From contig NZ_CP119766.1 in NCBI RefSeq assembly GCF_030378165.1, positions 124,001-188,000 of the forward strand: a stretch of DNA of 64,000 nucleotides, given 5' to 3'. The first letter of the stretch is position 1. Each line of letters opens with the position of its first letter. Under the pieces are notes generated by a model that was not told the origin of the DNA, ran no database searches, and saw only the letters and a list, made by a program, of their open reading frames with translations. Below, in pieces: positions 41,451-43,713 of this stretch. This stretch comes from Flavobacterium panacagri. Its GTDB lineage: Bacteria > Bacteroidota > Bacteroidia > Flavobacteriales > Flavobacteriaceae. Both the position numbers and the translations under genes were made by a program.

Positions 41451-42047
41451 CTATTTTATCCAGCCAGTCTTTTTTCGCCATTCCTCCATTTCCAGTTTTC
41501 TTTTTTCAAAATCTATTGGTGGAAATTGATTTTCATCTTTAACTCTTTTCTTCATAATTCCGATTTGTTCTTCCAAAGTATTGAAACCAATCTGTTTTCT
41601 TCTTTCGTTTACTTTGGTTACATCATCAAAGAAATTCGGGCTCATTTCACCGTTTTTATCCCAATCAAATTGAGTTCCGTATAACTGAGGCTTCCCTTCA
41701 AAAACGGCAATTCGATCTGTCAGATAAGCCAGATTTATTGGATCTGCTTTATTTTCGTTTACTGCTTTTTCTAATTCTTTGGCACACTTTCGCATAAAAT
41801 CAGGCAGTGCAATTGCATGCTGTATTATAATCCACGCATTTTGACTGGCCTCTTCTCCAACTTTATCAATTGATGGATAACCAATTTGGTTTATTATATC
41901 TTCTAATTCACCAGCATTTTTATTATGCAGTTTTTCCATTTCTGGATTATATCCTACTGAAAGTTTTCCGTCGAGAATGAGTTTTTCTCTCAATGCGAAA
42001 TCGGCGTTCTTTAGTTCTATTATTTTTTGGACTATGTCTTGATACAT
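41451..42047 (-). CDS. DUF6624 domain-containing protein
   Basis: A 198-residue cytosolic protein with the hallmark of DUF6624, IGYPSIDKVGEEASQNAWIIIQHA (about 56-79, cited as the segments IGYPSIDKVGEEAS and NAWIIIQHA), and a C-terminal Trp-rich tail (MEEWRKKTGWIK). Activity is unknown; the family is often annotated only by the domain. The gene ends beside an intergenic repeat and follows the hip operon by 16 bases on the same strand, so it may be co-transcribed with it. Confidence 0.8.
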   Translation of the reverse strand: MYQDIVQKIIELKNADFALREKLILDGKLSVGYNPEMEKLHNKNAGELEDIINQIGYPSIDKVGEEASQNAWIIIQHAIALPDFMRKCAKELEKAVNENKADPINLAYLTDRIAVFEGKPQLYGTQFDWDKNGEMSPNFFDDVTKVNERRKQIGFNTLEEQIGIMKKRVKDENQFPPIDFEKRKLEMEEWRKKTGWIK

Positions 42048-42063
42048 TACGTTTCTCCTTATT

Positions 42064-42993
42064 TTAAAATCTTCCCACTCGTTCTTTCAACAATTTAAAA
42101 TACTTCTCTTTCATATCTTCAGACAAAAATGAAAACTCAATTAATTCATTCCATTTTTCAACATTATCAAACATTTTTTTTATTATCTGCTCAATAATTT
42201 TATCATTTAATCCTAATCGTTCTTTTGCAAAATAATCAATCAAATCAACGGCTTTAAAATTACTTTTCTTCCCTTTTAATTTTAAAGCCATTTCTTCCTG
42301 CGGTTTTTTTATGGCAATGGAAGAATTTAGAAAATCATATGCTGGTGCTAAAGTCGTTTTACCCGATTTTGTAATCAATGAAAAGTTTTTCAAATGCATG
42401 TCTTCATTACCTGTTATAAAACAAAATAATACTCTTTTAAAAAGTGCTGCTTTTTCAATGGAAGGAAATGTGCAGAAATCATCCAAAACTTTTACAATTT
42501 TCTCCATCGTAAAATTATACTTGGTATCTCTGGAACTTCCTGTTAACTGTGCGAAATCCTCTGTAGCAAATTTTCTGCCTTTACTATAACGATCAAATCT
42601 TTTTATGAAATATGATTTTGAATCATCTTTAGAATAAACCAATCCATGAAGCGGTACATCGATTCCGTAAAGTTTTGCCATTCGCATGGTAAGATCTTCA
42701 TTCTCCGGTAGCTCAGGAAAAATATCACTTTGAGGTTTGATAATGAAATTACCAAACTGATCTACAATATCGAATTGTTGTTTTTTAATAGATAATACAG
42801 CGCTCAATTTAGGCTGAACACCTTGTATAGACAATTTACTGGCTCTATTAACCGCTTCTTGTCTCTGCTCTGATGCAGAAAAAGGAAGATTATGAAAAGA
42901 ATTCAATTTAGGAGATAACATTCTTAAACCTTTACTACTGTATAATCCATCTCCACATAATTCATATGTTATTGGGCACCTATTCATAATCAA
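42064..42993 (-). CDS. hipT: HipT-like serine/threonine kinase toxin
   Basis: A 309-residue kinase of the HipA/HipT family, here without the N-terminal subdomain, which is encoded separately. It has the Gly-rich loop LSIQGVQPKLSAVL (about 54-67), the catalytic loop LFCFITGNEDMHLKNFSLI (Asp in NED-MH, Asn in KN) and the Mg2+-binding ALP-type segment APAYDFLNS. In E. coli HipT the loop has Ser-Ile-Ser; here it reads Ser-Ile-Gln (residues 55-57), one of the natural variants. HipT-type kinases phosphorylate an aminoacyl-tRNA synthetase. It overlaps the hipS-like gene by 14 bases. Confidence 0.88.
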   Translation of the reverse strand: MIMNRCPITYELCGDGLYSSKGLRMLSPKLNSFHNLPFSASEQRQEAVNRASKLSIQGVQPKLSAVLSIKKQQFDIVDQFGNFIIKPQSDIFPELPENEDLTMRMAKLYGIDVPLHGLVYSKDDSKSYFIKRFDRYSKGRKFATEDFAQLTGSSRDTKYNFTMEKIVKVLDDFCTFPSIEKAALFKRVLFCFITGNEDMHLKNFSLITKSGKTTLAPAYDFLNSSIAIKKPQEEMALKLKGKKSNFKAVDLIDYFAKERLGLNDKIIEQIIKKMFDNVEKWNELIEFSFLSEDMKEKYFKLLKERVGRF

Positions 42994-43294
42994 CTTCTTT
43001 TACTGTTACCGCTCCCACTAAATCGCTTCCAGTTGCAATAAGTTGCGAAAAATAATCTTTCGTGTCTATTTTATTTATCTTTAAAAGACCTTCCAGCATT
43101 ATTCCTTCTGGTAGTAATCCTTCAAAAAATGGAGGAAAATTCAAGAATGAATATTTTTTATGGGTAATAGGCATAGTAAGTGAAACTGGCTCAGCCGAAT
43201 AATCTTCATCATATTCAAATACATAACTGCCATTTCCTTCTTCCAAAAGCTCGCCAGCTCTTACACCATGTACATAAACAATTGCTTTTCTCAT
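42980..43294 (-). CDS. hipS: HipS-like protein (HipA N-terminal domain)
   Basis: A 104-residue protein equal to the HipA N-terminal subdomain 1: KAIVYVHGVRAGELLEEG, LTMPITHKKYSFLNFPPFFEGLLPEG in two parts, and DLVGAVTV. In the HipBST system of enteropathogenic E. coli the small HipS protein is the antitoxin that binds HipT. Here it lies 3 bases after the hipB stop and overlaps the kinase gene, the same order. Whether it is the antitoxin in this organism is inference. Confidence 0.87.
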   Translation of the reverse strand: MRKAIVYVHGVRAGELLEEGNGSYVFEYDEDYSAEPVSLTMPITHKKYSFLNFPPFFEGLLPEGIMLEGLLKINKIDTKDYFSQLIATGSDLVGAVTVKEVDYE

Positions 43295-43508: not shown

Positions 43509-43528
43509 ATTACCGTTTTAACAGTAAA
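43509..43528. promoter_or_regulatory. Candidate HipB operator A
   Basis: ATTACCG-TTTTAA-CAGTAAA, 2 bases upstream of the hipB start codon. It follows the consensus TTTACYG-N6-CAGTAAA shared with sites B and C, with one arm base changed. Confidence 0.7.
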
Positions 43529-43580
43529 TATATTGATTTTTTAAAGACAAAAAATGAAATAGAGATATTTTACACCATTT

Positions 43581-43600
43581 TTTACCGCTATAACAGTAAA
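43581..43600. promoter_or_regulatory. Candidate HipB operator B
   Basis: TTTACCG-CTATAA-CAGTAAA, 72 bp from site A (start to start). Confidence 0.75.
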
Positions 43601-43651
43601 AACACATGTTAAACAATCTTTTTTTATTCTTTTCAATCTGATTAACGAATA

Positions 43652-43671
43652 TTTACTGCTACAACAGTAAA
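43652..43671. promoter_or_regulatory. Candidate HipB operator C
   Basis: TTTACTG-CTACAA-CAGTAAA, a perfect palindrome of 7-bp arms, 71 bp from site B. E. coli HipB also binds 20-bp palindromes cooperatively. Confidence 0.75.
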
Positions 43672-43675
43672 AAAG

Positions 43676-43713
43676 AAAAACCTTCAAAATCATTTCTGAC
43701 TTTGAAGGTTTTT
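43676..43713 (-). terminator. Terminator of the GH2 gene
   Basis: AAAAACCTTCAAA (43676-43688) pairs with TTTGAAGGTTTTT (43701-43713), with U on the minus-strand exit. Confidence 0.87.

Follow-up and report, generated by a model that had tools for sequence, protein, structure and literature searches.

In Legionella, the HipBST system carries three evenly spaced operators, O1-O3, upstream of hipB (Lin et al., mBio 2023, PMC10653801). These are 18-nt sites with 6-nt arms, separated by 53-bp gaps (a 71-bp period) and found in nearly all of 28 species, and the operator nearest the gene lies 24 nt upstream of the start codon (PMC10653801). Legionella HipB binds each of the three operators in EMSAs, with a supershift by HipT and by HipS-HipT, and the upstream DNA is bound by HipB but by neither HipS nor HipT (PMC10653801). 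Lin et al. raise a possible intermediate occupancy of the Legionella sites, contrasting it with the cooperativity of E. coli HipB; describe homologues of the Legionella system as widespread in Bacteroidota and its superphylum; and state that the Legionella operator motifs are absent from E. coli O127 (PMC10653801). The same paper sets the Legionella (Lp) type apart from the E. coli O127 system by a HipS that lacks W65 and has I65/M66 and by a HipT P-loop that reads S-I/V-Q, with a single serine (PMC10653801). The letters of the Legionella operators stand in a figure; the main text of that paper, searched for the motif, contains none, and the words "spacing" and "helical" are absent from it (PMC10653801). 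For E. coli O127, a further paper describes HipB as necessary and sufficient for repression, but requiring high expression when alone, and HipBST or HipBT as repressing at very low, leaky expression (PMC10627512).

Here we analyse a hipBST locus of Flavobacterium panacagri within a stretch of 64,000 nucleotides, the whole of which is called the window. The sequence-only reading of this DNA had described three regularly phased palindromes upstream of hipB and did not know such a layout from described hip operons. That remark does not hold: a layout of three operators with a 71-bp period has been published for Legionella (PMC10653801), and E. coli K-12 hipBA has four sites. Among open-licence papers, we found no published account of the spread through Bacteroidota, of the spacing classes, of the phase pattern or of the operator-helix pairs reported below.

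An Lp-type hipBST operon preceded by three palindromes

The window contains the three genes that an Lp-type HipBST requires, namely hipB, hipS (HipA N-domain) and hipT (HipA_C kinase), arranged as one operon (Table 1). Among solved structures, HipB is nearest to HipB(Lp) 8ezt (E 1.8e-17), HipS to HipS(Lp) (E 6.4e-35) and HipT to HipT(Lp) 7vkb and 8ezr (E about 1e-114 to 1e-115). HipT scores 386.6 bits against the Lp chain versus 112 against 7ab4, on the E. coli O127 side, where its best HipT match has E 3.2e-31; likewise, HipS scores 122.4 bits against Lp versus 47.8 against the E. coli O127 system. Structure 7ab5 is identified as E. coli HipBST. In the alignment HipS has I65 and M66, and the P-loop of HipT reads SIQ, with a single serine, as in the Lp type. 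Genes, protein scores, HipS and HipT residues and operator layout all fit, and the operon is, as judged from its sequence, of the Legionella (Lp) type. The listed hipT frame begins at TTG; most relatives align from residue 3, which is the ATG at 42987. The nearest named relative found is F. phragmitis, whose HipT is 94-95% identical.

Table 1. Features of the hipBST locus, in window coordinates
Feature	Position	Strand	Remarks
hipT, HipA_C kinase toxin by homology	42064..42993	-	HipA_C
hipS, HipA N-terminal-domain protein, 104 aa, antitoxin by homology	42980..43294	-	Couple_hipA
hipB, HTH repressor, 69 aa	43298..43507	-	profile score below TIGR03070 cut-off
near operator (predicted)	43509..43528	-	gene strand TTTACTGTTAAAACGGTAAT; ends 1 bp before hipB ATG; in 32/32 distinct loci
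conserved block, probable core-promoter (-7) region	43529..43543	-	immediately upstream of near operator
middle operator (predicted)	43581..43600	-	gene strand TTTACTGTTATAGCGGTAAA; in 32/32 distinct loci
distal operator (predicted)	43652..43671	-	gene strand TTTACTGTTGTAGCAGTAAA; in 32/32 distinct loci, L004 copy degenerate (4 mismatches)
terminator-like hairpin + T-run of upstream GH2 gene	43676..43708	-	read from sequence

Two neighbouring genes flank this arrangement. The terminator-like hairpin of the upstream GH2 (beta-glucuronidase-like) gene stops 4 bases short of the distal operator. Directly downstream of hipT, on the same strand, lies a DUF6624 gene (window 41451-42047), which was considered as a fourth gene of the operon and rejected: among the loci compared it is present only in the window (L001), L002 and L063, and it is therefore probably a passenger.

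The palindromes share an 18-bp core, TTACYG-N6-CRGTAA. On the plus strand they read ATTACCGTTTTAACAGTAAA at 43509, with 1 mismatch to TTTACYG-N6-CRGTAAA, and TTTACCGCTATAACAGTAAA at 43581 and TTTACTGCTACAACAGTAAA at 43652, each with 0 mismatches. Their start-to-start distances are 72 and 71 bp, the gaps between cores are 54 and 53 bp, and the near core lies 2 bp from the hipB ATG (43507-43505, minus strand). A search of the window allowing one mismatch at most returned exactly these three sites and none besides, compared with a mean of 0.08 matches and a maximum of 2 in 100 dinucleotide shuffles of the window; the array as first noticed, three palindromes 72 and 71 bp apart, is thus borne out by pattern search, and the shuffles exclude chance. 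Matches with up to 3 mismatches are uninformative because 25 occur in the window against 13.83 expected. Across the 5.98-Mb genome the 18-bp core has five copies, the three operators and two others (L034 and L035). A wider HipB regulon was looked for genome-wide and not found, because both off-array copies lie within long coding frames.

Conservation of the sites and selection on their spacing

We collected 44 loci, of which five have no detectable hipB (L015, L026, L028, L070 and L072), one is truncated (L008) and six are duplicates. The remaining 32 distinct loci, each with hipB and the DNA upstream of it, include the window's own, L001, and a single member, L038, from another genus of the family. 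All 32 contain the three sites, that of L004 being degenerate at the distal position, and their positions relative to the ATG are about -163, -93 and -22. Distal and middle sites are 69-72 bp apart (mean 70.6, sd 0.8), middle and near sites 70-73 bp (mean 71.3, sd 0.7). A finder that was given neither motif nor spacing, only a site length of 20, returned the identical triple in every one of the 32 loci. Conservation in relatives, the check proposed along with the sequence-only reading, was run and passed, with three sites in 32/32 loci at 69-73 bp.

We also scanned 299 Flavobacterium genomes for site pairs at any spacing from 53 to 83 bp. This returned 39 pairs in 25 genomes, all of them 69-72 bp apart (one at 69, 10 at 70, 16 at 71 and 12 at 72 bp), and a hipB match was present in 25/25 loci fetched from the scan; a reversed-pattern control over the same 299 genomes gave 0 pairs. 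Because these genomes share their genus with the 44-locus collection, the scan is a test of spacing and no independent sample. F. frigidimaris has two HipBST operons of the window type (L064 and L068), with a three-site array in both.

The linkers between the sites have diverged in sequence and kept their length. For the distal-middle linker the median pairwise identity is 0.53 versus 0.52 in shuffled sequence, and 92% of 496 pairs fall inside the shuffled 95% bound; its sequence is therefore close to saturated, and yet it is 49-52 bp long throughout. The middle-near linker, 50-53 bp long, has an identity of 0.58 versus 0.54 shuffled, with 69% of pairs inside the bound. Because the distal-middle linker resembles shuffled DNA in identity yet holds to 49-52 bp, the spacing itself is selected; on this comparison of sequences, selection acts on the distance between HipBST operators independently of sequence. 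That the palindromes are chance matches or neutral leftover repeats is already refuted and has a negligible probability: only 0.08 matches are expected in the window, the three sites persist in 32/32 loci despite nearly saturated linkers, and 39/39 pairs in the free-spacing scan lie 69-72 bp apart.

Arrays with other spacings in other clades

In more distant HipBST loci of Bacteroidota, whose HipT is 34-43% identical, the operator sequences are different and the spacing is 39-42 bp. We took 26 such loci, skipped L048, L057 and L058, and analysed 23. Three sites at 39-41 bp were obtained in 22 of the 23, among them L049 and L054, which scored under their own shuffled maximum; L062 failed. Loci of the TATACCC type have triples at 40-41 bp in 12 of 13 cases, L099 having one 41-bp pair only, and L107 and L108 have 42-bp steps.

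Among 32 TTACYG-side loci that lie outside the window's clade, 20 have triples at 70-73 bp and L082 has a 71-bp pair. L104 is spaced 61/61 bp; L079 has one 61-bp pair, and its distal site, likewise at 61, came from the motif-free finder. Arrays with added sites occur in L121 (41/31/38 bp), L123 (73/41 bp) and L125 (41/41/31/41 bp plus one weak outer match). No classifiable array was found in six of the 32 loci (L089, L090, L115, L117, L119 and L120), among which L117 has one weak 71-bp pair, L115 a single site and L120 a site within hipB. The motif-free finder did not itself recover the arrays of L105, L106 and L125 as given here, because the near site extends into the gene in L105 and L106 and because L125 has more than three sites. 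In L105 and L106 the near operator, starting 8 bp before the hipB start, overlaps the start codon, so that the first hipB codons are part of the operator. In the HipT tree, the 61-bp arrays and the added-site arrays form one supported clade each, nested in the 71-bp side.

Operator class follows the HipB recognition helix

Operator sequence and HipB sequence change together. TTACYG sites pair with the helix GK[TS]...[DN].E in 58/58 loci, TATACCC sites with G[LIY]RF.R[DE].E in 23/23 and TATAY..CATATA sites with [AS][LI]TV.RK.E in 15/15, so that operator class and helix agree in 96/96 classified loci, the classes and motifs having been assigned by hand after viewing the sites and the HipB sequences. 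L062 and L099 were entered as TATACCC despite the lack of a full array from the finder. Six further loci are unclassified: five have none of the three helix motifs, and L115 has GKT.

Even when 2 mismatches were allowed, no site was found in L015/L072 (one locus), L070, L026 or L028, all of which are without detectable hipB. F. salmonis (L015/L072) and F. saccharophilum (L070) carry hipS and hipT with no detectable hipB and no operator sites. L026 and L028 are fragmentary loci, the hipT frame of L015 (F. salmonis) contains a TGA, and L072 has a different gene, a 255-aa frame, ahead of hipS.

These pairings bear on whether a regulator other than HipB might occupy the sites. HipB binding here is itself an inference, which leaves some room for such a regulator; against it stand the agreement of operator class with the HipB helix in 96/96 classified loci, the lack of sites in five loci without hipB, and Legionella, where the upstream DNA is bound by HipB and not by HipS or HipT (PMC10653801). 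We therefore consider another regulator very improbable. The three palindromes are very probably HipB operators serving autoregulation, and autorepression by HipB at these palindromes is very likely by analogy and from the covariation. The operator/recognition-helix pairs also provide a starting specificity code for HipB.

A promoter-like block next to the near operator

In agreement with the sequence-only reading, the window's own linker contains no good promoter box; relatives do have a block of strong conservation directly upstream of the near site. Conservation over the 15 positions before each site amounts to 10.4 bits at the near site, 3.2 at the middle and 2.3 at the distal, and the extra conservation of the middle-near linker is located in the 15 bp directly before the near site. 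Promoters were scored in 15 of the 20 triples outside the window's class (L105, L106, L109, L126 and L128 were omitted). In 12 of these 15 relatives the middle-near linker yielded a better top-scoring sigma70-like -35/-10 pair than did the distal-middle linker, the other 3 being ties. In 8 of the 15, the end of the -10 hexamer is 8 bp from the near core, roughly where the conserved block sits. The Bacteroidetes promoter consensus, TTG-N17-23-TAnnTTTG, was rejected as a discriminator: in 32 Flavobacterium loci the middle-near linker scored higher than the distal-middle linker in 6, tied in 15 and scored lower in 11. The Flavobacterium promoter is therefore placed by conservation only, since this consensus fails to separate the two linkers. 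In L125, as read from its sequence, a TTGACA-N17-TATAAT promoter has an additional operator lying over its 17-bp spacer.

In the main rival to contact between neighbouring complexes, three HipB operators would act independently, without contact, the additional sites raising occupancy or grading the response and the spacing being set by a promoter between two of them. The middle-near interval does bracket promoter-like sequence in relatives outside the class, and the discussion by Lin et al. of intermediate occupancy in Legionella would suit such a design (PMC10653801). Independent action leaves unexplained, however, why the distal-middle spacing is equally fixed, given that this linker is near-saturated and has a promoter-like score that is lower in 12 and tied in 3 of the 15 relatives. 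It likewise does not explain the sister-clade arrays at about 40, 61 and 31/41 bp. We regard independent operators as the less likely account, and as the main rival.

Helical phase and a proposed contact between complexes

The sequence-only reading had put the interval at about seven helical turns. This holds only at about 10.15 bp per turn, where 71 bp make 7.0 turns; at 10.5 bp per turn they make 6.76. Once whole turns of 10.5 bp are subtracted, the 31-bp class leaves 0.95 of a turn, the 40-bp class 0.81-0.84, the 61-bp class 0.81 and the 71-bp class 0.76; their best common period is about 10.1 bp. With data and random trials on one grid, random classes were as good as 31/40/61/71 with p 0.007 (free period) and 0.022 (10.5 fixed), the four classes having been chosen post hoc and the 31-bp class being based on two loci, L121 and L125. 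When 38 (L121) and 42 (L107/L108) were added as classes, again post hoc, the pattern weakened to p 0.052 for a free period and 0.036 at 10.5. The clades would then sit at roughly whole-turn spacing steps, a pattern that is suggestive only, with few classes that were picked after viewing.

We propose that each palindrome would be bound by a HipB dimer, most strongly within the HipB-HipS-HipT complex. The near site would span the DNA between roughly the transcription start and the start codon, with the middle site upstream of the core promoter, so that the 71-bp near-middle interval would bracket the promoter. Adjacent complexes, held at a fixed helix angle, would touch or bridge through HipT, and because they touch, the linkers of about 51 bp would be bent or looped and repression would be cooperative. 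The distal site would be one more identical step of the array. For this proposal as a whole, that is, Lp-type HipBST operators with autorepression and contacting complexes, we estimate a probability of roughly 0.55.

Phase-dependent contact between neighbouring complexes, taken by itself, appears slightly better than an even bet. It best explains why the distal-middle distance, in a linker that gives no hint of containing a promoter, is no looser than the middle-near one, and why the clades shift by about whole turns; counting against contact, 71 bp does not make an integral number of turns of 10.5 bp. We infer bridging or wrapping of the DNA by HipB complexes, and bridging is best supported by the fixed spacing of the distal-middle pair, whose linker is near-saturated in sequence and has a lower or equal promoter-like score. 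Obligate bridging is disfavoured because Lin et al. raise a possible intermediate occupancy of the Legionella sites (PMC10653801). Independent occupancy versus bridged complexes at a HipBST promoter thereby becomes a directly testable question.

A broader and more tentative idea, to which we give somewhat less than even odds, is that a phase-locked nucleoprotein array controls HipBST operons across Bacteroidota (and Legionella). In it, HipB-HipS-HipT complexes on adjacent operators would make contact at a constant helical angle, so that spacing could evolve only in steps of approximately one turn (31, 40, 61 and 71 bp) while operator and helix change together. If it were true, the linker DNA would be overwound or wrapped left-handedly, as its slope of about 10.1 bp per turn implies.

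Comparison with known systems

A search of E. coli K-12 hipBA with the operator consensus TATCC-N8-GGATA gave four sites at 28, 39 and 28 bp. K-12 hipBA thus resembles the window in having palindromes repeated upstream of hipB and differs from it in motif, site number and spacing, as well as in its one-piece hipA and lack of hipS. In LacI-type DNA-looping repressors, repression acts through phase-dependent operator spacing, whereas in the window phase dependence is suggested by the spacing. E. coli O127 HipBST shares the split three-gene operon (PMC10627512, PMC6581861); its proteins are more distant from those of the window than are the Legionella proteins.

Legionella HipBST is alike in its three operators, with 18-nt sites, 6-nt arms and a 71-bp period (gaps of 54 and 53 bp here), in providing the nearest relatives of the window's HipT, HipS and HipB among solved structures, and in the type of recognition helix, GKT..YD.EK. 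It differs in belonging to another phylum and in that O2 and O3 break symmetry, whereas the window's distal and middle sites are good palindromes. The present analysis extends the Legionella observation to much of a phylum, the Bacteroidota.
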